A stretch of 64,000 nucleotides of DNA, taken from contig NZ_JAUNOQ010000004.1 in assembly GCF_030531065.1 (NCBI RefSeq), positions 124,001-188,000 on the forward strand, given 5' to 3'. Under the pieces are notes generated by a model that saw only the letters and a list, made by a program, of their open reading frames with translations, had not been told where the DNA came from and searched no databases. The stretch's first letter is position 1; each line of letters opens with the position of its first letter. This DNA comes from Phascolarctobacterium sp. GTDB lineage: Bacteria; Bacillota; Negativicutes; Acidaminococcales; Acidaminococcaceae. The translations under genes were made by a program, and so were the position numbers. Shown one piece after another: positions 30,242-42,064 of the stretch.

Positions 30242-31192
30242 CTAAAATATATCGGTTGGGAATTCCTTATTTGCAAGTAAATAAAAAGTTATGGTTACAG
30301 AAAGCAGATCTGCGCTGCCTCCCGGACTGATGCGGCGTGAAACGAAATATTTTTCCGCTTCAGCCAAAGCCCTACGCCCCGCTTCGGTAAAGACGTCGCC
30401 CTTGGCTAAAATATCGGCCGCGATAGCCTGCACTTCGCGCGACGTATGCACGTCGGTGCGCCAAATTACGTTGCTGTCTTCCACCGTCGTCATGAGCGCC
30501 AATAAAGTATGCACTAAAGCGTCGTTCAAAGACGCTCCGCGAGCGAAAGCTTCTTGTAAAGCCGGCAGCCCGTGATACACAACGCTGGGAAAACCTTTTT
30601 CTACCTCGCCGCGAATACCGGTAATCCCGTAATCGCGATATAATTTTTCGCCCGCCGTCCTTGCTTCATCTTGCAGGCAGCGTAACTCATTATCGACCAA
30701 ACCGGCGGTCATTTCCTTGATAAGAGGCAGCAAAGCGCTGCAATCCAGGCCGCGGTTCATTGCGTACCCAGCCGCTCCGCTGATTATGCCTCCGGCGAAA
30801 AGAATACCTCTTTGAGTGTTGACGCCCTTTGTAACGCGCAACAATTCCTGCTCCGCAGTTACGCCGTAAGCGCGTATTTTCGCAAATAATTCCTGTTCTG
30901 TACCTTGATGCGCCATACCGATATCCTGCAAATCCTGAAAGGCTTTGCTCAAAACGGCGGAGCTCATCATAAATGTCATAAGGCTCATATCCTGATGCGA
31001 GCCGTTTGATAAGCGCGTTACCAATCCAGGCTTAGGATGGGCGCTTACTTCTAATAAAATCGCCTGCGTAAGATACTGGCTTGTCTTTTGCAAACCGATA
31101 TCAAAGGAAGAAAGCTGGCAAGCATAAAAGCTGTCGATAATTTTTATTTCGTTTTTGTCTACTCGTTGAAGTAAAAATTGTTGCTCTTGCAT
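30242..31192 (-). CDS. madG: triphosphoribosyl-dephospho-CoA synthase (MadG/CitG/MdcB family)
   Basis: 316 residues. The family signature is clear: SAHPKPGLVTRLSNGSHQDM in the first third, then GVNTQRGILFAGG and GITGIRGEVEKGFP. The enzyme makes 2'-(5''-triphosphoribosyl)-3'-dephospho-CoA from ATP and dephospho-CoA, the precursor of the prosthetic group of MadE. MadK, encoded upstream, then attaches it to the ACP. The N-terminal 40 residues are longer than in CitG. It is the last gene of the mad cluster here, whereas in Malonomonas rubra madG is near the front. Confidence 0.93.
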   Translation of the reverse strand: MQEQQFLLQRVDKNEIKIIDSFYACQLSSFDIGLQKTSQYLTQAILLEVSAHPKPGLVTRLSNGSHQDMSLMTFMMSSAVLSKAFQDLQDIGMAHQGTEQELFAKIRAYGVTAEQELLRVTKGVNTQRGILFAGGIISGAAGYAMNRGLDCSALLPLIKEMTAGLVDNELRCLQDEARTAGEKLYRDYGITGIRGEVEKGFPSVVYHGLPALQEAFARGASLNDALVHTLLALMTTVEDSNVIWRTDVHTSREVQAIAADILAKGDVFTEAGRRALAEAEKYFVSRRISPGGSADLLSVTITFYLLANKEFPTDIF

Positions 31193-31246: not shown

Positions 31247-32002
31247 TTAACCAAAAATAGCCTTCGTCAGTAAATAGAATACGGACGGGAAAGTCAGGCA
31301 GCCGGAACCGGTGTAGAAGGTTGCGGTCATTGCGCAATACGGAACCAATTTAGGATCTACAGCCGCCATACCTGCAGCCGTACCGGAAGTAGTACCCATG
31401 ATACCGCCGAACACCATTGCGGATTGCGGGTTATTCAGGCCGATCATCTTAGCGACGAACGGAGTCATAATCATAACCAATACGGATTTTACAACGCCTG
31501 CAGCGATGGAAATTGCAATAACTTCGGAAGAAGCGCCCAGAGCCGCGCCGGTAACGGGGCCAACTACGAAGGTCGCTACGCCAGCGCCGATGGTGCACAA
31601 GTCAATGGGAGAACGATAACCGAACATATAAGCGATAGCCACGCCGGCAATCCAAGAAGTAACCAAGCCGAACACCAGGGAAAGCACGCCGACCACGCCG
31701 ACTTTTTTAATTTCGCGCAAGTCCGCGCCGAACGCGGTGGAAACGATGGCGAAATCGCGGAACATCGCGCCGCCCATCATGCCGATACCGGCGAACATGG
31801 GGATGGTTGCGATACCTTTAGCGCCGCCGCCAATATAAGCCAGAACCAGGCCGAGGAAAATCGCTACGGCGCTGCCGTGAATGCGTCCTTTGGTCAGTCC
31901 TGCCATTTTATAAGCGAATAAGTTTACGATACCAATCAGAACGAAAGCAAAAATCAGGCCGTTCTTAACCAATACTTTGGATAACATTGCCATTAAATCC
32001 AT
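31247..32002 (-). CDS. madM: malonate transporter subunit MadM
   Basis: 251 residues, about eight membrane helices, with the MadM opening (LVKNGLIFAFVLIGIVNLF in part) and Gly/Ala-rich helices (GGAMFRDFAIVSTAFGAD, GTTSGTAAGMAA). With MadL it forms the Na+-dependent malonate importer described for Malonomonas. 15 bp separate it from madL and the Shine-Dalgarno AGGGGG lies in that gap. Length and composition are normal. Confidence 0.92.
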   Translation of the reverse strand: MDLMAMLSKVLVKNGLIFAFVLIGIVNLFAYKMAGLTKGRIHGSAVAIFLGLVLAYIGGGAKGIATIPMFAGIGMMGGAMFRDFAIVSTAFGADLREIKKVGVVGVLSLVFGLVTSWIAGVAIAYMFGYRSPIDLCTIGAGVATFVVGPVTGAALGASSEVIAISIAAGVVKSVLVMIMTPFVAKMIGLNNPQSAMVFGGIMGTTSGTAAGMAAVDPKLVPYCAMTATFYTGSGCLTFPSVFYLLTKAIFG

Positions 32003-32017
32003 AATTTACACCCCCTT

Positions 32018-32380
32018 TTATTGTTTTTGTCCGCCCATTTTACTTAAAAGCGGAATGCAGATGAAGCCCAGAACGATGCCCAGTACGCCGCCCAGGACAG
32101 CTACTGCGCCGCCGGAAAGAGCTGCGGCTACGTTTTGGATAGAGCTCATCGCTACAACAATAGGGATGTACATTGCGGACCAGAAAGCGATACCCTCCTG
32201 ACTCTTTTTATCCAACCAACCGGCGTCAATGCCTTTGTTGGACAAAATAATCAAGAATAACATTGCGAAACCAACGCCGCCGACGTTAGCTTTAACGCCT
32301 AAAAGCGCACCCAGAATATCGCCCAGATATACGCCAGTCAAATAACAGAACGCAAGTAAAGCAACACCATAAATAACCAT
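32018..32380 (-). CDS. madL: malonate transporter subunit MadL
   Basis: 120 residues, four membrane helices, opening VIYGVALLAFCYLTGVYLGD, with VGGVGFAMLFLIILSN in the middle. The MadL/MadM pair is a two-component carrier. The ATG is preceded by AAGGTGG. The gene follows the second madF copy after a gap containing a very stable hairpin. Confidence 0.92.
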   Translation of the reverse strand: MVIYGVALLAFCYLTGVYLGDILGALLGVKANVGGVGFAMLFLIILSNKGIDAGWLDKKSQEGIAFWSAMYIPIVVAMSSIQNVAAALSGGAVAVLGGVLGIVLGFICIPLLSKMGGQKQ

Positions 32381-32478: not shown

Positions 32479-32688
32479 TTATTCAACGATAGCTACAACC
32501 TGACCTGCGCTTACGCGGTCGCCGGGTTGTACTTTGTATTCTTTAACAACGCCTGCTACCGGAGAAGGCACCAGTTGTTTCATTTTCATGGCTTCCATAA
32601 CGATCAACACGTCGCGAACAGCAACCTGGTCGCCTACTTGTTTTTCAAAACGTACGATTTTACCGGGAACGCGAGATTTAATTTCCAT
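32479..32688 (-). CDS. madF: biotinyl carrier protein MadF, second copy
   Basis: 69 residues, a bare biotinyl/lipoyl domain. The biotin site EAMKMKQ lies at residues 32-38. The carrier shuttles the carboxyl group taken from malonyl-ACP by MadC/MadD to the membrane decarboxylase MadB. The protein is identical, residue for residue, to the product of the copy at 32939-33148. Ribosome site AAAGGAGAAATG-type precedes the ATG in both. It is the one nearer madL. Confidence 0.95.
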   Translation of the reverse strand: MEIKSRVPGKIVRFEKQVGDQVAVRDVLIVMEAMKMKQLVPSPVAGVVKEYKVQPGDRVSAGQVVAIVE

Positions 32689-32938
32689 GATTCATTTCTC
32701 CTTTTAATTTCAAATTTTATTTTTATTTGCGATTTTAGAAATGCCAGCCTGCACAAGACCGGCTAGAAAGCGCCAGATGCAAGGAAGGGCGACGACGGCG
32801 CATAATCAATACTCCTCATCCTTCGGATGTTAGCACGACCAACGCGTTTTCACTGCGCTACGCTTGTGATAACGCGGGTCTTTGCGTCATGAGCTTTGAT
32901 AAAGTAGATAACGCTTTATCGCCGGTTCCTATAGAAAA
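32689..32938. other. spacer between the two madF copies
   Basis: 250 bp without a gene. It holds small hairpins (CATCC-TTC-GGATG near 32818-32830 and GATAAAG...CTTTATC near 32898-32920) but no terminator and no clear promoter, so both copies are probably on one RNA. The last 20 bp match the sequence upstream of the other copy, marking the edge of the duplicated segment. Confidence 0.5.
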
Positions 32939-33148
32939 TTATTCAACGATGGCTACAACTTGGCCCGCGCTAACACGATCGCCGGGTTGTACTTTGTATT
33001 CCTTAACAACGCCTGCTACCGGAGAAGGCACCAGTTGTTTCATTTTCATGGCTTCCATAACGATCAACACGTCGCGAACAGCAACCTGGTCGCCTACTTG
33101 TTTTTCAAAACGTACGATTTTACCGGGAACGCGAGATTTAATTTCCAT
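32939..33148 (-). CDS. madF: biotinyl carrier protein MadF, first copy
   Basis: 69 residues with the same EAMKMKQ biotinylation motif. About 150 bp of coding sequence plus the ribosome site are the same as in the copy at 32479-32688; the remaining part, encoding the C-terminus, has eight base differences, all synonymous. That implies either recent duplication with strong selection or partial gene conversion. The adjacent birA presumably supplies the ligase. Two copies could raise carrier dosage relative to other subunits. Confidence 0.95.
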   Translation of the reverse strand: MEIKSRVPGKIVRFEKQVGDQVAVRDVLIVMEAMKMKQLVPSPVAGVVKEYKVQPGDRVSAGQVVAIVE

Positions 33149-33169: not shown

Positions 33170-33847
33170 TCAATTTAAATATTTCATTATATCTGCGCGA
33201 TATAATAAATTAACATCATCCAGGCTTTTACCAAGCAACGTCCTGGTATCGGCAAATATTTCGGGAAGCTTTACGCCGTAGCCGTTAGGCAAATCCAGCT
33301 CGAAATCCAATTTGATTTGGCCAAAATTTTCCTGAGCCGTGCGGTAAAAGTCCAACAACTTTTCATAAGCGGCAGGTTTAATCAGCAAATCGATATCGGA
33401 CTCGTCGTCCGTATAGGGCAGGTCGGTCGCCAGCTCCAACGCCGCCGAACCGAGCGCGCCAATCTGCAAATCGTATTCCGCCGCCAAGCTGTAAAGCTTG
33501 AGCAAGGTTTCCATGCAAAGGTTAGGCGCGTCGAAAGCAAACGCCCTGCGCTGCATAACTTCATAAGGCGTCATCGTCATTACGATATCCTGCATCGTAG
33601 TGAAAGCGCCGATGCGCAAGCGATTCCCCTGCAAGCGTTGGTGGTGGACGAAGCCGACGGCAAGCATTTCCGGTCTTTCGTCGCTGCGGCGGACAAATCC
33701 GGGAACGTCGGCGTCGCCGAGCAACACATCCCGCGCCATTTGCCAGGCGTCGCCGCTATAAGCAGCGGCGATATCCCGCCATATTTTTTCTTTGCCTGAC
33801 GAAGATACAAAAACCAAGTCGTGTCTTTTTAACTGCGTTTTGTCCAT
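33170..33847 (-). CDS. madK: phosphoribosyl-dephospho-CoA transferase (MadK/MdcG)
   Basis: 225 residues. The C-terminal half carries the nucleotidyltransferase-like pattern ALGSAALELATDLPY followed by DDESDIDLLI, where the Asp pair binds metal. The enzyme attaches the triphosphoribosyl-dephospho-CoA made by MadG to a serine of the ACP MadE. The start lies inside the last 19 bp of madH. HDLVFV near the N-terminus is typical of MdcG proteins. Confidence 0.9.
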   Translation of the reverse strand: MDKTQLKRHDLVFVSSSGKEKIWRDIAAAYSGDAWQMARDVLLGDADVPGFVRRSDERPEMLAVGFVHHQRLQGNRLRIGAFTTMQDIVMTMTPYEVMQRRAFAFDAPNLCMETLLKLYSLAAEYDLQIGALGSAALELATDLPYTDDESDIDLLIKPAAYEKLLDFYRTAQENFGQIKLDFELDLPNGYGVKLPEIFADTRTLLGKSLDDVNLLYRADIMKYLN

Positions 33848-34932
33848 GTCGGGTCTGCCTTCGCTTTCTGTTGATAATCGAGCTGCGCCCGTACCATATC
33901 GTCAAAGAACTGCGTTTTCTGCGGCCCTTCGATAATAATTCCCGGCTGCTCTCCCGCGCTGACGTAATCTGGTTTCAATTCCAAAACCGTATGCTCCGCT
34001 CCCGTTACGACGTCGGGGCTTACCTTAACGATACGCCCTTTAATTCGCAAAATGGAACGGACGACTCTGCCTAAAGTTACCGTCGAAGTAAGCGTTGTCG
34101 CTTTGACAATCACTTCATATTCCGGATAGGTGCGCTCGCGGCGATAGGTAATAATCTTACCCTCGCTGTTGCACACATGACCGCTGGCGGATACGGGGAA
34201 GCTGTCGCCCATCGGCAAGCCGCCCACTACCAGCTCGAACATTTCCTGTCCCGCGCCGCCCGGAAGCTTAACCAATTCGATATCTTCGCGCACCGGCACG
34301 CCGTCCATGCACAGCCAGCCAAATTCCTGACAGCCGTATAAATCGTGGACGCGCGCGTTCAGTACGGATTTCGCCGTCGGCAAAAGCTCCAAATCCAGCG
34401 GTGTGCCTGCGGTCAGCAAAACGATATCTCGCGGCAATTCGTCAGCCACGCCCATATGCCTGGCGTCCTCCAAAGCCGCTCTGATAAACGAGGATTCGCC
34501 GACCACGGCCTGCGGTTGAAATTCATACAAAGCCGCCAAAAAAGCGTCCCTGCTGGAGCGTACCAAAAAGCGCCATTCCAAACCGTACTTTTTCATAGCG
34601 TCGCCAGAAAACACGTTGACCAAAGGCGGATAAGTTACCAAAACCTTATCGCCCGCTTTAAGCCCCGCGCGTTGCAAAACATTAAACGACGCCTGGATTT
34701 TACGCGGCATTTCGGCGAAAGTAACTCCGACAATATTTTGGAAAGCGGACGAGCCTGTGGTAAAAGTCAGATAAGCCAGATTAAGGGGAGTATGAACCTC
34801 TTCAATGGTATGAGCGGCAGTCGGTCCAGCTATTCCTTTATCGGCCAGCGTTTTACGCGGCATTTCGGCAAATGTTGGCGCGGATCCAAAGTCCTTAACC
34901 ATATTGGCAATTTCTGCCAGCATTCCTTTCAT
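33829..34932 (-). CDS. madH: ACP-SH:acetate ligase MadH (adenylate-forming)
   Basis: 367 residues. In Malonomonas the MadH ligase acetylates the dephospho-CoA thiol of the ACP with ATP and acetate, starting the cycle. The sequence resembles the phenylacetate-CoA ligase branch of adenylating enzymes (LLTAGTPLDLELL; DLYGCQEFGW; SEGKIITYRRER). A curious feature is the motif TFAEMPRK, present twice (about residues 20-27 and 71-78) with matching DNA, as though a small segment was copied within the gene. It overlaps madK and lies 25 bp after madD. Confidence 0.85.
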   Translation of the reverse strand: MKGMLAEIANMVKDFGSAPTFAEMPRKTLADKGIAGPTAAHTIEEVHTPLNLAYLTFTTGSSAFQNIVGVTFAEMPRKIQASFNVLQRAGLKAGDKVLVTYPPLVNVFSGDAMKKYGLEWRFLVRSSRDAFLAALYEFQPQAVVGESSFIRAALEDARHMGVADELPRDIVLLTAGTPLDLELLPTAKSVLNARVHDLYGCQEFGWLCMDGVPVREDIELVKLPGGAGQEMFELVVGGLPMGDSFPVSASGHVCNSEGKIITYRRERTYPEYEVIVKATTLTSTVTLGRVVRSILRIKGRIVKVSPDVVTGAEHTVLELKPDYVSAGEQPGIIIEGPQKTQFFDDMVRAQLDYQQKAKADPTWTKRS

Positions 34933-34957: not shown

Positions 34958-35848
34958 TTAAGCGTTGATGTATTTGTCTGCTACAGCGGCGAACTCTTCG
35001 TTCATTTTAGCCATAGCTTTCAAACGGGTTACGCGACCGCCGCGAGCGTCGCCGTCCAAGCCGCGGCCCCAGGGACCGAGCTTCTCAATTTCGCCGGCGG
35101 CTTTCAGCTCTTGCACTTCTTTAATGTGCTTAGCGATAGCGCCGCGCATATCTTCTACTTTATTAACAATCTCTTTTACGCCGCCCAGATTGTAGAAGAA
35201 GTTTACGCCGGGAGCGAATACCGGGTTGACCTTGGACAATTCTTCCAGACGCTCGATATCCATTTTGGTAATACGGGAAATGGAAGTGATGGGCATTACG
35301 TGAATCATAGTGCCAAAGTCAGTGGACAGAGCCAGGATTTCGTCGGCTTGCAAACCGTGGCACAGGAACGCGCCGGAAATTGCGCGGCCGATTACCATCG
35401 CGATAATGGGATGGCCGGTCTTGCGCGCTTCGGCCAAAGCCAGCTGGTATGAACCGGTAGCTTTGTTCATGCCGGCGATTTCTTCCATTTTGCCGGGGCC
35501 GTTGCCCGGGGTGTCGACAATCAAAACAATCGGGCGTTTCTCAGCCAAAGGTTTTTCTTTGTCGGCTTCAATAGTGCGATATACGGCAGTAGCCATTTTG
35601 TAAGCTTCTTCCAAACCGATAACGCCGCCGAATACTACCGGGAAGCGGTCGTTGAAAGCGTAAGCGTCGTTAGCGATAACGGTTACGGTTTCGCCTTCCA
35701 GTTGAGCGGTGCCGACAACGGCGCCAGGGCCGTATTCCGGATCCAGCTCGGCGGAACCTACTTTATTTTCTGCGAAGGAGCCAGCGTCAACAATCATTTC
35801 AATTGCGTCGCGACCGCGGCCAATCATAGTGTTTTCCATTTCATCCAT
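34958..35848 (-). CDS. madD: malonate decarboxylase carboxyltransferase gamma-type subunit MadD
   Basis: 296 residues of carboxyltransferase/crotonase fold. GRGRDAIEMIVDAGSF near the start, VLIVDTPGNGPGKMEE in the middle and MVIGRAISGAFLCHGLQADE further on match the MdcE/MadD family. With MadC it moves CO2 from malonyl-ACP to the biotin of MadF, leaving acetyl-ACP. AAGGAGG precedes the ATG; 18 bp follow madC. Confidence 0.92.
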   Translation of the reverse strand: MDEMENTMIGRGRDAIEMIVDAGSFAENKVGSAELDPEYGPGAVVGTAQLEGETVTVIANDAYAFNDRFPVVFGGVIGLEEAYKMATAVYRTIEADKEKPLAEKRPIVLIVDTPGNGPGKMEEIAGMNKATGSYQLALAEARKTGHPIIAMVIGRAISGAFLCHGLQADEILALSTDFGTMIHVMPITSISRITKMDIERLEELSKVNPVFAPGVNFFYNLGGVKEIVNKVEDMRGAIAKHIKEVQELKAAGEIEKLGPWGRGLDGDARGGRVTRLKAMAKMNEEFAAVADKYINA

Positions 35849-35866: not shown

Positions 35867-36826
35867 TTATGCGCGAACTCTGCGTTTTACAACTTTGAGG
35901 AATTCTTCGGTAGTCATTTCCGGCAAAGCTGCGGGGTCTTCGTTGCCAAAATACTTCCACAAATCCATGGAATCTTTAGGCTGCATATCGCCGACCAGTT
36001 TTACCAGGCCTTGTTGTTCCTGTACCAGCGGCAAAGAACCGATGCGGCGCATCTTTTCGATTTCATCCATGGACAGGTCGGCTACTTCGGCCAAAGTCTT
36101 ATGGAAATCGCCGATAACGTCTTCTACCAGATAGTTGCAGTCCTGGATGATGTATTTATGTTTAGCGCCGGTAGTACGGTATACCAATGCTTTGTTGGAA
36201 GCGTCGAATTCGTCCTTGCCCATTTCCTGCTCGATTACTTCCGGGCCGGTCAAGCCGATACGGCCTTCTTCGTTCATAACGATAACGTCGGTAGCTGCGG
36301 CAACGAAGCCCATACCGCCGAAGCAGCCTACTTTAGAGCCAACTACGGCAACAATCGGGAGAATGCGACGGCAATCCTGGATAGCGTCCATAACTTCGGC
36401 GTGAGCCAGGAGGCCGGCGTTTGCTTCGTGCAAACGCACGCCGCCGGTTTCAAAGGAAATCGCTACCAACGGACGGCGAGCTTCATACTCGTCAGGGTGA
36501 GCAGCTTTAATATCTTTAGCGGTTTTCAAAGCCAGACGCAAGGTGTTGACCATTTTAGCGCCGTTGACTTCGCCGATAGCGCCGCCGATAAATTTGCCTT
36601 CCATGGATACGACGAACAGGGGATGCTTGCCAACCAGACCTACGCCGGTTACGGTGCCGTCGTCAAATTCAACTGCGGTTCCCAATACGGGCAGATGGGG
36701 GCTTTCAAAACGATCCAGAGGATTCAGTAATTCGGTAAAGGTGCCTTTATCGCACATGCCCACTGCACGTTCACGGGCATTAGCATCAAAGAAGCTGCTC
36801 TTCTCCAGCTCATTCCAACTTTTCAT
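35867..36826 (-). CDS. madC: malonate decarboxylase carboxyltransferase beta-type subunit MadC
   Basis: 319 residues. Carboxyltransferase fold: ELEKSSFFDANARERAVGM near the N-terminus, ISFETGGVRLHEANAG for the acyl-binding region, VVGSKVGCFGGMGFVAA for the oxyanion loop and RIGLTGPEVIEQEMG. Pairs with MadD. The start codon sits directly at the stop of madE, so the genes are coupled. Length and order match MdcD/MadC. Confidence 0.93.
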   Translation of the reverse strand: MKSWNELEKSSFFDANARERAVGMCDKGTFTELLNPLDRFESPHLPVLGTAVEFDDGTVTGVGLVGKHPLFVVSMEGKFIGGAIGEVNGAKMVNTLRLALKTAKDIKAAHPDEYEARRPLVAISFETGGVRLHEANAGLLAHAEVMDAIQDCRRILPIVAVVGSKVGCFGGMGFVAAATDVIVMNEEGRIGLTGPEVIEQEMGKDEFDASNKALVYRTTGAKHKYIIQDCNYLVEDVIGDFHKTLAEVADLSMDEIEKMRRIGSLPLVQEQQGLVKLVGDMQPKDSMDLWKYFGNEDPAALPEMTTEEFLKVVKRRVRA

Positions 36827-36827
36827 C

Positions 36828-37154
36828 TTATTCTGCCTCCTTTGCGGTTGCTTCTGCCAGCGCCTGGCGCAATCTCATATAAACTACGATGGGCGTAGCG
36901 TTGTCGTCGTTGATTTCGATAGTGATGTTGCCAACGCCGGTGTCGTTAACGAATTTGCCCAGCATTTTTTCCCAAACGGCGTCGAAGCCGACTACCGGAG
37001 TGCAGACTTTGGCTTTAACATTGCCGCCCAAATCTTCTTTAATGAACATAACTTCCAGGTCGCCGCTGCCGGTTACGCCCAAATGGAACCATTCGGGGTT
37101 AATGGTTTGAGTATTTTCAGATTTAAATTCAAATTCCAGATTTTGTAATGCCAT
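36828..37154 (-). CDS. madE: malonate decarboxylase acyl carrier protein MadE
   Basis: 108 residues. Ser30 in VTGSGDLEV is the attachment site of the 2'-(5''-phosphoribosyl)-3'-dephospho-CoA group. The carrier is unlike the four-helix ACPs of fatty-acid synthesis. It presents acetyl- and malonyl-thioesters to MadA and MadC/D. GAGGAGG precedes the ATG, 16 bp after madA. Confidence 0.94.
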   Translation of the reverse strand: MALQNLEFEFKSENTQTINPEWFHLGVTGSGDLEVMFIKEDLGGNVKAKVCTPVVGFDAVWEKMLGKFVNDTGVGNITIEINDDNATPIVVYMRLRQALAEATAKEAE

Positions 37155-37169
37155 TGTACTGTCCTCCTC

Positions 37170-38843
37170 TTACCAGTTTCTAAATTTAGCAGGCGGGTTA
37201 TAGAGGCCACCGGACCATTCAACCAGATCATGTACGTTCTTAGCAGCCAGCATGGAGCGGTTAGCTCTGCTCATATCGATACCCAAATCTTGCGGAGTCT
37301 TGATGATGCCCAACTCGCGCAGGCGTTTGGTCTCTTTCGGGTCGGCCTTCATGCCGACTTCGGTGAAGCCTGCGATACCGCGGATAGCGGCGGTGCGTTC
37401 TTCCATATTGCGGCACTTCGGCAGGTAAGCGATACCTTCTTCGGTAATGATATGGGTCAGGTCGTCGCCGTAAATCATTACGGGTTCGATGGACAGGTTG
37501 GCGTTCTTAGCCAGCTTGAAAGCGTCCAGCTCTTCTACGAAGCCGGGAGCCAGTTTTTCGCGGAAGGTTTCGGCCAGTTGTACAACCAGGCGTTTGCCGC
37601 GGCGTACAGGACCCCACAACTCTTTGTTGAGCGCGTATTCTTCGCCGCATTTCAGCCATGCGCCGGAGGAATGACGACGGCCTTTCGGGTCGCAGCCCAT
37701 GTTAGGCGCGCCGCCGAAACCTGCTACGCGGTTAGCGGTAGCGGTGGAGGAGTTGCCGTACGGGTCGATTTGCAGCGTGCCGCCGATGAACATATCGATA
37801 GCGTAATGACCTGCGGTTTGCGAGAACGCGCGGTTAGAACGCATGGAGCCGTCGGGGCCTACGAAGAAGATGTCGCTGCGGGCGGCAACGTAATCTTCCA
37901 TGCCCAATTCGCCGCCGAAGCAGTGAACGGATTCTACCCAACCGGTTTCGATTGCCGGAATCAAAGACGGATGCGGATTCAGGATAAAGTTCTTGCAGAT
38001 TTTACCCTTCAAGCCCAGCTCTTCGCCGTAGGTCGGCAGCAGCAGCTCGATAGCCGCGGTGTCGAAGCCGATGCCGTGGTTCATGGATTCAACCTGATAT
38101 TCGCCGTAGATGCCTTTAATAGCCATCATGCCTTTTAATACCTGCGCGTCGGTAATCAAAGCCGGGTCGCGGGTGAACAGCGGCTCGATGTAGAAAGGTT
38201 TCGGGGATTGGATTACATAGTCGACCCAATCGGCGGGAATATCTACACGAGGCAGCTTATCGACGATTTGATTTACCTGGGCAATAACAATGCCCTGACG
38301 GAATTTAGTAGCTTCGACAATCGCCGGAGTATCTTCGGTGCTGAAGCCGGTGAACAAATTGCCTTCCTTATCCGCCATGGTTGCGGCTACCAGCGCTACG
38401 CGCGGAGTCAAATCAAGGAAATAACGGCCGTACAATTCCAAATAAGTATGGATAGCGCCCAGCTCCAGTTTGCCCTCCTGCAGGAATTGCGCGATGCGTC
38501 CAGCCTGCGGCCCGGAGAAAGACATATCCAATTTCTTGGCGATACCTTTTTCAAATACATCCAGATGTTCGGGAAGAGTCAGCACGGATTGAACCATGTG
38601 CAGATCATGAATCTTAGCGGGGTCAACCTGGCACAAAGCCTTAGCCAAAAAGTCGGCTTGCTTCTGGTTGTTGCCTTCGATGTTTACCTTGTCGTAAGGT
38701 TTGATTACTGCTTCCAGTAACGCTACTACATCTTTCGCATCAACGATTTTTCCCTCTTTGACAAGATGAGCTGCGTTTTTAGCGCGCTCCATCGCGTCCT
38801 TTTTGAGAGTGTCCCACTCACGAGTAACTTTTTTGAACTCCAT
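37170..38843 (-). CDS. madA: acetyl-ACP:malonate ACP transferase, alpha subunit MadA
   Basis: 557 residues, normal for the family. It exchanges acetate on the ACP thioester for malonate, releasing acetate as product. CoA-transferase-like features include DKVNIEGNNQKQADFLAKAL in part near residue 55, and MNHGIGFDTAAIELLLPTYG, with ATANRVAGFGGAPNMGCDP later. It is the first gene after the terminator that follows hutP, and AAAGGAGAG precedes the ATG. Its expression should depend on read-through of that terminator. Confidence 0.95.
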   Translation of the reverse strand: MEFKKVTREWDTLKKDAMERAKNAAHLVKEGKIVDAKDVVALLEAVIKPYDKVNIEGNNQKQADFLAKALCQVDPAKIHDLHMVQSVLTLPEHLDVFEKGIAKKLDMSFSGPQAGRIAQFLQEGKLELGAIHTYLELYGRYFLDLTPRVALVAATMADKEGNLFTGFSTEDTPAIVEATKFRQGIVIAQVNQIVDKLPRVDIPADWVDYVIQSPKPFYIEPLFTRDPALITDAQVLKGMMAIKGIYGEYQVESMNHGIGFDTAAIELLLPTYGEELGLKGKICKNFILNPHPSLIPAIETGWVESVHCFGGELGMEDYVAARSDIFFVGPDGSMRSNRAFSQTAGHYAIDMFIGGTLQIDPYGNSSTATANRVAGFGGAPNMGCDPKGRRHSSGAWLKCGEEYALNKELWGPVRRGKRLVVQLAETFREKLAPGFVEELDAFKLAKNANLSIEPVMIYGDDLTHIITEEGIAYLPKCRNMEERTAAIRGIAGFTEVGMKADPKETKRLRELGIIKTPQDLGIDMSRANRSMLAAKNVHDLVEWSGGLYNPPAKFRNW

Positions 38844-38972: not shown

Positions 38973-39422
38973 CTATATATGCATAACTCCCAGCCCTGCA
39001 CGCTCGTGATTAGTCATATAGTGCAGCGCCGATTTGCCAAACAAGGCAACTGCAATCCAATGCTCGTCCCTAGCCACGGCAATTTTCATAGCCAGGCTAG
39101 CGCTCGTACTCACGCTAACCAAAATGCCTCTTTTAGCTTCTTCGGTAGCGTGGATTATCGCGTGGATATCATTGGTGCTTTTTTGTATGATGCCTGAATT
39201 GAGGCAGGCACCGATTACAGCCCGATTTATTTTTTCATTGAAATCGTCAAAGGTAGTTTTGCCGCCGACTTCTGTGACCACAGCCTTGAAGCCGCTTTTA
39301 GCTACCAGTTTTTTCATCATCCCCTCGTCGTAAAGGGTTTGGGTAATAGCCAAAAGCATCGCGGCCGTACCAGCGCTTCTAATGCTGGTTTCCAAAAAGT
39401 CCTGCTTGCTTGGTTCCGCCAT
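38973..39422 (-). CDS. hutP: HutP-family RNA-binding antiterminator
   Basis: 149 residues from ATG 39422 (GGAGTGA upstream; a TTG at 39428 is in frame). HutP of Bacillus is a hexamer that needs L-histidine and Mg2+ to bind NAG repeats and prevent termination in the histidine-degradation operon. The ligand residues are kept: HAIIHATEEA matches the HxxxHATxEA metal/histidine site, and the C-terminus NHERAGLGVMHI matches the last His. No hut genes exist in the window. Its placement between birA and the terminator ahead of madA points to the malonate operon as its target. Whether the effector is still histidine is unknown. Confidence 0.88.
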   Translation of the reverse strand: MAEPSKQDFLETSIRSAGTAAMLLAITQTLYDEGMMKKLVAKSGFKAVVTEVGGKTTFDDFNEKINRAVIGACLNSGIIQKSTNDIHAIIHATEEAKRGILVSVSTSASLAMKIAVARDEHWIAVALFGKSALHYMTNHERAGLGVMHI

Positions 39423-39443
39423 TCTCAATCACTCCTTCTCTAT

Positions 39444-40187
39444 TTAACGGATACTGATTTCCCCAAAGTCAAAGCTTTGGCATTCTCCTCCTTCGCTGCG
39501 TACAACGATTGCTCCTTCCGCGTCGATATCCGTTACCGTTCCCGAAAAAATAACCTCGTCGTTATCTTTGACCAAAACTTTTTGGTTCAAAGTACAATTC
39601 AGTTTTTTCCAGAGCGGTAAGATTACGTCGGCGCCGCAAACAAGCCACTCCCGATAAAGCCCGTTAAACTCTTGCAAAATATTATCCAAAACGTCTTCGC
39701 AGGTATAATTTTTGTTCAAGCTAACATTTAAAGAAGCGGCAGCGTCTCTTAATTCCGGAGGAAAATCTTCTATCTTTAAAGCCACGTTAACGCCTACGCC
39801 CACCACGGCGTAATCTATTTCGCCGTCTTCGCTCAGCTGCAGCTCCGAAAGGATGCCGCAAACTTTTTTCTTGCGAAGTAATAAATCGTTGGGCCATTTT
39901 ATCATTATATCGTCCGTGGCATAAAGTCTGCGTAAAGCCTGGCAAACCGCTACGCCCATCAGCAACGTAACCTGCGCAGCGTATTGAGGATCGATTTGCG
40001 GACGCAGGATAACGCTGAACCATAAGCCGCCTTCCGGCGAAGTCCAGACGCGGCGCATCCTGCCGCGTCCATTCTCCTGGCGTTTCGCAACTATGACGGT
40101 ACCTTCCGCAGCTCCTTCTCGGGCAAAACTTACGGCGGTAACATTTGTAGATTTCAATACGTCAAATTGTCGAAGCTGTATCTTCAT
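39444..40187 (-). CDS. birA: biotin protein ligase (no DNA-binding domain)
   Basis: 247 residues, catalytic plus C-terminal domains only. The biotinyl-AMP motif GRGRMRRVW is present (Gly-Arg-Gly-Arg-x-x-Arg-x-Trp), followed by KWPNDLLLRKKKVCGIL and GVGVNV. The N-terminal helix-turn-helix of repressor-type BirA is missing, so it should be a ligase without autoregulation. Its location inside the operon for a biotin-dependent decarboxylase with two MadF carriers argues that it serves those carriers. Confidence 0.93.
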   Translation of the reverse strand: MKIQLRQFDVLKSTNVTAVSFAREGAAEGTVIVAKRQENGRGRMRRVWTSPEGGLWFSVILRPQIDPQYAAQVTLLMGVAVCQALRRLYATDDIMIKWPNDLLLRKKKVCGILSELQLSEDGEIDYAVVGVGVNVALKIEDFPPELRDAAASLNVSLNKNYTCEDVLDNILQEFNGLYREWLVCGADVILPLWKKLNCTLNQKVLVKDNDEVIFSGTVTDIDAEGAIVVRSEGGECQSFDFGEISIR

Positions 40188-40222: not shown

Positions 40223-41434
40223 TTATTTTACCAAACCAATCGTAGCGATGAATACGCCGCAAGCGATAGCGGATACGATAACGCCGCCGATATTAGCGCC
40301 CATAGCTACGGGCATTACTACGGCAAACGGGTCCTCGTCTTCAGCCGCATGCTGAGCAATCTTAGCGGTGGTCGGCACGCAGGATACGCCGGCGATACCA
40401 ACTACGGGGTTGAAGTCGCCCTTCTTGAACCAGTAAACCACATAACCGCCCAAAACGCCTACGACGCCGGATACGGTCAGAGCCATAACGCCCAGAATAA
40501 TCAGCGGCGCTACTTTCGGGTTCAACAAGGTGGAAGCTTCGCACAAGGTGCCGAGCAGCAGGCCCAACATCAAAGTACCGATGTACAGCAAAGTGTTTTC
40601 AATCAAATCCTGATAGGGAACAATCTCCGCTTCTTTAATAGCCATGCCCAGGAAGAAGGACATAATCAGCGGAGCGGCCATCGGCAGCAACAGGCAGAGC
40701 AGCGCGCAGCATACCAGGATGAAAATAAATTTCTTATGTTTGGGAACTTCGGGAGCGTAGTACATAATATCTTTACCGCGCAAAGCTTTGGGAACCAGCA
40801 GCTTGAGCAGCCAAGGATAACCGGCATAGGTCAAGGACAGGTACAGATAAGCGATTACGGAAATCGGTACGAACAGATGCGGAGCCAGCATCAGGCTGGT
40901 GAACAAAACCATCGGGCCGTCCGCGCCGCCGATAGAAGCAACCGCAGCCGCCTCCGGAGGAGTCAATCCCAAGTGTACGCCCAATACTAAAGTAACGAAA
41001 GTGCCGGCTTCGGCAAAAATCGCGATAATGATGGAAGTCCAGGGATTAGCCAGGATAAAACCGATTTCGCACATAGCGCCAACGCCCATGAAAACTACGC
41101 AGGCTACAAGGCTGTTGCTGAAAGTCAGGTTGTAAATCGGCTGCAGGAAATTTATCTGCATAATATCGACTAAAGCCGCAGGATCAGAAATCAACGGGTC
41201 GAGGAACAGCGTGCCGATTTTGCCGCCGTCCAGGAAAAGGACGCCGCAGTTAATACAAATCATGCCAACGCCCATGGGAACCATGATAAGCGGTTCCAAA
41301 ACTCTTTTAAAGCCTAAGTAAGCTAAAACAAAGCCAAAGATAATAAGACCGATTCTGGCAAGAGCGATCGTGGTGTCCTGCACCATTAAAGACGCAATGC
41401 CAGGGAATAATTGTGCAACGATGCCAGCGTCCAT
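40223..41434 (-). CDS. madB: carboxybiotin decarboxylase, Na+-pumping membrane subunit MadB
   Basis: 403 residues, about nine to eleven helices, OadB/GcdB/MmdB family. The key GGADGPMVLF motif with the Asp needed for Na+ transport and decarboxylation is present, as are the GVGAMCEIGF and VVGIAGVSCVPTTAKIAQH segments. It takes CO2 from carboxybiotin and exports Na+. GGAGG lies within the end of the preceding 42-aa gene. Because all OadB-like proteins are similar, the malonate assignment rests on gene context; a methylmalonyl-CoA or glutaconyl-CoA decarboxylase could in principle share it. Confidence 0.92.
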   Translation of the reverse strand: MDAGIVAQLFPGIASLMVQDTTIALARIGLIIFGFVLAYLGFKRVLEPLIMVPMGVGMICINCGVLFLDGGKIGTLFLDPLISDPAALVDIMQINFLQPIYNLTFSNSLVACVVFMGVGAMCEIGFILANPWTSIIIAIFAEAGTFVTLVLGVHLGLTPPEAAAVASIGGADGPMVLFTSLMLAPHLFVPISVIAYLYLSLTYAGYPWLLKLLVPKALRGKDIMYYAPEVPKHKKFIFILVCCALLCLLLPMAAPLIMSFFLGMAIKEAEIVPYQDLIENTLLYIGTLMLGLLLGTLCEASTLLNPKVAPLIILGVMALTVSGVVGVLGGYVVYWFKKGDFNPVVGIAGVSCVPTTAKIAQHAAEDEDPFAVVMPVAMGANIGGVIVSAIACGVFIATIGLVK

Positions 41435-41436
41435 GA

Positions 41437-41565
41437 TTATTCCATACCTCCTTCATCATTACTGCCGCCCATAATTTTATTGAGCAGTACAACAGCGCCA
41501 ATCATAACAAGAGCGATTGCTGCGGTAAATGCGTAAGAAAACAACGCATAAAGTTCAACGCTCAT
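41437..41565 (-). CDS. 42-residue membrane peptide upstream of madB
   Basis: Short gene with a strong ribosome site (AAAGGAGATC) and an ATG at 41565. One helix spans residues 11-29 (AFTAAIALVMIGAVVLLNK); the tail GGSNDEGGME is acidic. The stop codon lies two bases from the madB start, and the madB ribosome site is inside its last codons. Position and topology match the small OadG/GcdD-type subunit that anchors sodium-pumping decarboxylases, but it lacks the long proline linker and zinc-binding tail of OadG. It may be a MadB partner or stabiliser. Confidence 0.75.
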   Translation of the reverse strand: MSVELYALFSYAFTAAIALVMIGAVVLLNKIMGGSNDEGGME

Positions 41566-41649: not shown

Positions 41650-41690
41650 GCAAATAAAAATATCCCTTTCCGCCAGCGACAGAAAGGGAT
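41650..41690 (-). terminator. terminator T2, expression platform of the cobalamin riboswitch
   Basis: Stem ATCCCTTTC / GAAAGGGAT (41662-41670 with 41682-41690) followed on the minus strand by ATTTTTATTT. It sits between the riboswitch aptamer and the 42-aa/madB genes. Confidence 0.88.
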
Positions 41691-41743
41691 ACAAGAATAG
41701 CATAGTTATCTCGTATACACTCCGTCTCTCGCAGAAATATATA

Positions 41744-41871
41744 ACAAACTAAGGCTGCGATCTGACTTAACCCCTCATTAAAAACAATAGAAGTATCACA
41801 GTGGCGTGACCGTAGCAGATTCACACTGCTTTCCCTAATTTACCCCTTGCGGGCACCTTAGCCAGTTTTGT
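41744..41871 (-). promoter_or_regulatory. cobalamin (B12) riboswitch in the madB leader
   Basis: Read on the minus strand. The core UUAGGGAA is followed by the arm AGCAGUGUGAAUCUGCU and then ACGGUCACGCCACUGUG, with the B12-box GCCACUG at 41799-41805. The 3' conserved AAGUCAGAUCGCAGCC comes next. The closing stem CUAAGG (41855-41860 region) pairs with CCUUAG, flanked by ACAAA/UUUGU. These are the class-defining elements of the AdoCbl/cobalamin aptamer. A terminator lies downstream, so the likely outcome is that B12 stops transcription into the 42-aa gene and madB. Confidence 0.9.
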
Positions 41872-41924
41872 AATTTTACCTCCCGAAAAAATTTTGGGAA
41901 GCGTTCTAAACACGTTGCAAAGCT

Positions 41925-41975
41925 AGAAAAACAAAAAGAGACCGATTGAATAAAAACTCTTATTCTCTCGATCTC
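41925..41975 (-). terminator. terminator T1 at the start of the madB leader
   Basis: Outer stem GAGAUCGA / UCGGUCUC (41968-41975 with 41938-41945), inner stem GAAUAA / UUAUUC, then TTTTTGTTTTT. Lies about 55 nt after the promoter and before the riboswitch. Several GAG triplets precede it, so it is a second candidate target for HutP. Confidence 0.85.
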
Positions 41976-42035
41976 CGTTATGCAATTTTAAGCTTTACTT
42001 GGGGAACTCTATACTCAAATTCTCTCGTTGCTTGT

Positions 42036-42064
42036 ATTGTATAACACGTTCGTCCATTTGTCAA
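42036..42064 (-). promoter_or_regulatory. consensus sigma-A promoter of the malonate operon
   Basis: On the minus strand TTGACA (42059-42064), exactly 17 bp, TACAAT (42036-42041). The start point is near 42029, giving a leader of about 465 nt holding T1, the riboswitch and T2. Confidence 0.88.

Follow-up and report, generated by a model that had tools for sequence, protein, structure and literature searches.

The malonate decarboxylase (mad) operon in the window, i.e. the whole stretch of 64,000 nucleotides analysed here, is preceded by a genuine cobalamin riboswitch as judged from its sequence, and the element is predicted to bind cobalamin. The explanation considered probable is that this riboswitch terminates mad transcription at high B12, that malonate serves as a substitute at low B12, and that an upstream terminator (T1) together with a HutP-family protein forms a second attenuator. 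The riboswitch belongs to a known class, its target is of a kind new to us, and the leader probably carries a protein-controlled attenuator too. A search of open-access literature yielded no paper on a riboswitch associated with malonate decarboxylase.

The aptamer and the operon behind it

In a cmscan analysis of the whole window, two matches exceeded the gathering score; one is a tRNA, the other RF00174 (Cobalamin). The latter covers the full length of the model (1-189) on the minus strand with 47.5 bits (E 8.9e-9), the gathering score being 31.5 bits. This confirmed the B12 aptamer which a sequence-only reading had placed at 41744-41871; that interval covers the aptamer but leaves out the loop L13 and the switch. 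A local covariance model, for which the three compact mad aptamers were combined with compact relatives, gave 157 bits at 41699-41881, a score that is high by construction because the window sequence itself is part of the model.

The aptamer is of the compact form without the long P6 extension. The conserved core is present (GCCACUG, the AGUCAG B12 box and helices P2, P4 and P6), and its residues match those of other compact cobalamin aptamers. Pairing in the aptamer helices amounts to 95.8% across three species (window, L013 and L016), and three double changes occur, located in P2 and P4. Kissing complementarity between L5 and L13 extends over four of five positions (CACGC with GCGAG). By eye, both loops have changed jointly in comparison with the compact relatives on contig C21 of the same genome and in G036, which display CCAGC and GCUUG. 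The L13 of the window also occurs in further cobalamin riboswitches of the genome. This genome comprises 2.37 Mb in 27 contigs; five RF00174 matches in it exceed the gathering score, and one weaker match scores as AdoCbl (RF01482).

The features of the leader and of the operon are listed in Table 1. The sequence-only reading had assigned the riboswitch to the leader of a 42-aa peptide and madB as control of a single subunit. The leader was correctly identified, but the entire mad operon follows. It encodes a complete set for a Na+-translocating malonate decarboxylase: madB, the alpha subunit, the acyl carrier protein (ACP), the beta and gamma subunits, the biotin carrier, madLM, mdcG and citG. 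The nearest named relatives of the window belong to Phascolarctobacterium, with MadB up to 94% identical. The mad operon of Malonomonas rubra has the same gene set and is not known to carry a riboswitch. A missing biotin carrier was considered and rejected, since two identical madF copies are present. The DNA of these tandem copies is near-identical, the ribosome-binding region included.

Table 1. Features of the mad leader and operon, in window coordinates
Feature	Position	Strand	Evidence
Strong sigma-70 type promoter TTGACA-17-TACAAT, best match upstream of leader	42036-42064	-	11/12 consensus; relatives with equivalent promoters in the same place
GAG-rich 5' leader ending in terminator T1	41926-42030	-	8 GAG in 73 nt vs 1.8 expected
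Cobalamin riboswitch aptamer, compact form	41736-41875	-	RF00174, 47.5 bits; compensatory changes in P2 and P4, three species
P13-L13 hairpin, loop UGCGAGAGAC (41733-41724) complementary to L5	41714-41743	-	Sequence
Antiterminator, overlapping L13/P13 and 5' arm of T2 (predicted)	41678-41726	-	Pre-terminator fold, z -3.4
Intrinsic terminator T2 of riboswitch	41650-41692	-	15-bp hairpin 41692-41660, then TTTTATTT
42-aa membrane peptide, also conserved in front of madB in related operons	41437-41565	-	No Pfam match
madB, Na+-translocating carboxybiotin decarboxylase subunit	40223-41434	-	TIGR03136 equivalog, 636 bits
birA-type biotin protein ligase	39444-40187	-	TIGR00121
HutP-family RNA-binding antiterminator	38973-39428	-	PF09021, 113.6 bits; B. 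subtilis HutP 1vea/1wmq, E 1.3e-4
madA/mdcA, malonate decarboxylase alpha subunit	37170-38843	-	TIGR01110, 971 bits
Malonate decarboxylase acyl carrier protein	36828-37154	-	TIGR03130
Beta carboxyltransferase subunit	35867-36826	-	TIGR03133
Gamma carboxyltransferase subunit	34958-35848	-	TIGR03134
Probable madH (ACP ligase)	33829-34932	-	Weak AMP-binding PF00501, E 7e-5, below gathering score; position conserved
mdcG, holo-ACP synthase	33170-33847	-	TIGR03135
madF, two 69-aa biotin carrier copies (32939-33148 and 32479-32688)	32479-33148	-	Identical proteins
madL, malonate:Na+ symporter	32018-32380	-	PF03817 (pair with madM)
madM, malonate:Na+ symporter	31247-32002	-	PF03818 (pair with madL)
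citG-type triphosphoribosyl-dephospho-CoA synthase	30242-31192	-	PF01874

Two predicted attenuators in one leader

The presence of a terminator downstream of the aptamer, also proposed in the sequence-only reading, was confirmed as the hairpin T2. When the RNA up to the terminator was folded, a long antiterminator was obtained for the window, L013 and L016, in which the 5' arm of the terminator is bound by L13 together with the 3' strand of P13 (GACGGAG with UUCUGUC, and AUACGAGA with UCUUGUAU). These pre-terminator folds exceed dinucleotide shuffles in stability, with z values of -3.4, -2.9 and -2.7, respectively. Masking of L13 during folding gave P13 and the terminator in all three species, and it flipped the predicted structure in L016. 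Antiterminator and terminator are mutually exclusive in the predicted folds and form the expression platform. Both helices display one-sided changes only, in a comparison of just three close sequences.

From the folds, the masking of L13 and the joint change of L5 and L13, the mad riboswitch is therefore predicted to be a transcriptional OFF switch, the folds of the three species being in agreement. In the ligand-free state, L13 and the 3' strand of P13 would pair with the 5' arm of T2, and the polymerase would read into the mad operon. Upon ligand binding, L5 would hold L13, the antiterminator would be lost and T2 would form. For the aptamer of another genus at the same site (L034, see below), folding revealed no clear switch platform; by sequence, its L13 (GAGAGACGG) could pair with the 3' arm of its T2 (CUGUUUCUC), a pairing which is not preferred in folding. 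A short element around TGTCCGGAAA lies at about 41640-41620 (minus strand) between T2 and the 42-aa peptide; it is kept at equivalent places in most mad leaders of the Acidaminococcaceae (L012-L036), riboswitch present or not.

Upstream of the aptamer, the hairpin of T1 (GGAGAUCGA...UCGGUCUC, about 41976-41937) is followed by a T run. It was absent from a simple terminator scan because its loop region comprises 20 bases. The GAG-rich leader, T1 and the operon-encoded HutP-family protein would constitute a second, independent attenuator, the signal of which is perhaps malonate. In the HutP-family protein of the window, the His residues are conserved at both aligned motifs, HAxxHAT and the C-terminal one. 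Leaders built of promoter, GAG repeats and terminator are found in HutP-bearing mad operons of Negativicutes and, in a weaker form, of Eggerthellaceae. GAG is enriched between promoter and T1 in most HutP-bearing operons, the enrichment not being significant in L034 and L025. By eye, no GAG leader of this kind is seen in six inspected loci lacking a HutP match (L087, L088, L089, L092, L022 and L024).

The accompaniment of the HutP-family gene by GAG/terminator leaders in the mad operons of several lineages indicates that the two regulators, HutP-type antitermination and riboswitch, probably act in series on the mad operon. With both attenuators, the operon would thus need the HutP signal and low B12. 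A bolder version is proposed tentatively: a two-input RNA gate in which a Na+-pumping catabolism requires both the lack of B12 and HutP-type antitermination in response to malonate or a related signal, the B12 input having been added twice independently.

Two known systems are comparable. The Bacillus subtilis hut operon shares the HutP-family protein and has a NAG-rich leader with a terminator, to which the GAG-rich leader and T1 may correspond; the mad operon differs in serving malonate, having tandem terminators and carrying a riboswitch in addition. The tandem SAM and cobalamin riboswitches described for metE (PMC9600662) likewise place two serial attenuators in one leader as a two-input gate. 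There, both inputs are riboswitches, whereas the first attenuator of mad is probably under the control of a HutP-family protein. No relevant paper on HutP with malonate was found in the open-access literature searched.

A HutP-family gene lies in or beside mad operons of Negativicutes, Eggerthellaceae and Afifella (window, L012-L021, L025-L031, L034-L036, L084, L085, L090 and L091), most of the leaders being GAG-rich and ended by a terminator. Several mad loci show an apparent second HutP-like gene ending just upstream of the leader. The sequence data suggest HutP-type control of malonate use in several lineages, and the present leader is a pointer to it.

Occurrence and origin of the mad aptamers

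Seven genomes of the genus were searched, and all three in which madB was detected (window, L013 and L016) carry the riboswitch in front of it. With cmscan of L012-L038 and L084-L092, a cobalamin riboswitch near madB was detected in L013, L016 and L034 only; none was found in the mad locus of P. faecium. Two species of a sister genus display an eroded aptamer before madB (L017:9444-9631 and L018:699-886), identified with the local model at E-values of 2e-6 and 5e-6 and not detected with Rfam at E up to 0.1. These remnants keep L5 and L13, while the P2/P4 core is damaged and loss or alteration affects P2, the J3 strand and L4; they may be riboswitches in decay or have acquired another specificity. 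The absence of the switch from other mad operons, P. faecium included, and its erosion in L017 and L018 indicate that it is not essential to mad control.

In L034 (genome G044, another genus), a canonical class-I aptamer with 108.6 bits occupies the same place before madB. The assembly is 75% complete, with promoter, T1, aptamer, T2, peptide and madB all on one contig. In the MadB tree, the window, L013 and L016 form one clade (96/94), which is joined by L017 and L018 (96/96), and L034 lies outside. Sequence comparison revealed that the compact mad aptamers are closest to one another, followed by compact elements such as G057:C14. The L034 aptamer is closest to mutAB-type elements (G033:C211, G044:C7 and the mutAB riboswitch of the window's own genome); the latter resembles L034 and not the window element. 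As the two types of mad aptamers resemble different riboswitch families of these genomes, a B12 aptamer was probably recruited into the mad leader twice. A single ancestral gain with later replacement is a possible alternative. Capture from a neighbouring system, as suggested in the sequence-only reading, finds no support, since no B12 gene is among the annotated neighbours; capture in evolution from riboswitches located elsewhere in these genomes, twice, appears likely. If true, two different aptamers taken up by one and the same leader would be a natural replicate for selection on a B12 input.

Proposed role of B12 and alternative explanations

Phascolarctobacterium lives on succinate via the mutase route, and the mutase step requires B12 (PMC7568257). 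The main energy route of the present organism would correspondingly lead from succinate to propionate via the B12-dependent methylmalonyl-CoA mutase. One locus contains the genes for succinate CoA-transferase, methylmalonyl-CoA mutase, MeaB and epimerase together with mmdA, biotin carrier and mmdB (the last three at C21:62421-66042); none of the cobalamin riboswitches of the genome is located there. Malonate decarboxylation requires biotin and a phosphoribosyl-dephospho-CoA carrier, and not B12. When B12 is short, this biotin-dependent, Na+-pumping pathway would be released as a substitute. B12 auxotrophy of the genome was considered and rejected, as CbiD and CbiC are encoded; B12 is therefore probably made, and a shortage would need low cobalt or a similar condition.

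B12-independent isozymes are regulated by cobalamin riboswitches (PMC2211319). As the malonate route has no need of B12, release of mad at low B12 would resemble this type of control, raised to the level of a pathway. For metE and nrd genes the aptamer also lies on a B12-replacing function that is off with B12; there, one enzyme is exchanged per reaction, whereas with mad the exchange would concern the whole energy pathway and its substrate. We infer that B12 level choosing between energy pathways, the third option of the sequence-only reading, is the best remaining reading of the mad switch. To our knowledge, mad would, if true, be the first case in which a cobalamin riboswitch makes the choice between entire energy metabolisms. 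Cobalamin riboswitches, with targets in B12 supply and among single isozymes, would then also control a complete alternative energy pathway of succinate consumers that are common in the gut, and the supply of B12 (or cobalt) is predicted to decide malonate use by these bacteria.

A real OFF switch might also serve another purpose, with mad, uptake, synthesis and a second mutase all belonging to one general response to low B12 (low cobalt); decarboxylation would then, e.g., free succinate/fumarate enzymes from inhibition by malonate, or yield acetate or a Na+ gradient. Further cobalamin riboswitches of the genome lie in front of mutAB, which encodes a second, likewise B12-dependent methylmalonyl-CoA mutase, of genes for cobalamin assembly, and of a TonB receptor gene with an ABC transporter operon. 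The mutA riboswitch of Veillonella parvula is among those functional in a B. subtilis reporter (PMC9600662). It belongs to the same bacterial class and also acts on acid metabolism, but unlike mad its target is the B12-dependent mutase itself. With this switch class on mutAB here and on mutA in Veillonella, the low-B12 regulon of the lineage includes a B12-dependent enzyme. Replacement by B12-independent substitutes is therefore not the sole logic of its cobalamin riboswitches, and the purpose of the mad switch is something we infer. Still, malonate decarboxylation is a self-contained, B12-free energy pathway that would run when the mutase cannot, and the general low-B12 response is considered unlikely.

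It is improbable that the aptamer is a relic of riboswitch duplication with its ligand response lost or its ligand changed. The modest score in the window and the eroded core in L017 and L018 would fit such an origin, but three species have retained P2 and P4 (with compensatory changes), L5, L13 and the helices of the switch, the core residues agree with other compact aptamers, and a second, strong aptamer was placed at the same site in L034. An ON switch, with B12 promoting mad transcription, would be in line with the riboswitch on the B12-using mutAB operon; it is very improbable, since the overlap of L13 with the antiterminator predicts termination upon ligand binding in three species and functional relatives repress in B. 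subtilis, where all 38 cobalamin riboswitches counted functional in a reporter repressed expression (PMC9600662). That MadB is shared with methylmalonyl-CoA decarboxylase, as proposed in the sequence-only reading, is hardly credible despite the homology of MadB and MmdB (PF03977), because the latter enzyme has its own B subunit (mmdB, C21:62421-63551) and biotin carrier beside mmdA, mad has its own carriers, three further OAD_beta genes lie in C26, and the switch precedes the entire mad operon.

Further observations were made in the genome (G000). The strong riboswitch at C21:18830-19003 (L003, L077; 100.7 bits) precedes a 166-aa ORF with no Pfam match and mutAB. The three OAD_beta genes (C26:155957-160985, L083) stand in a row beside transporter-like genes, and an alpha subunit was not found in their vicinity. 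Finally, a nitrogenase-component-1-like gene and a further ORF (C20:60753-62252, L081) are located downstream of the riboswitch-preceded TonB receptor/ABC transporter genes.
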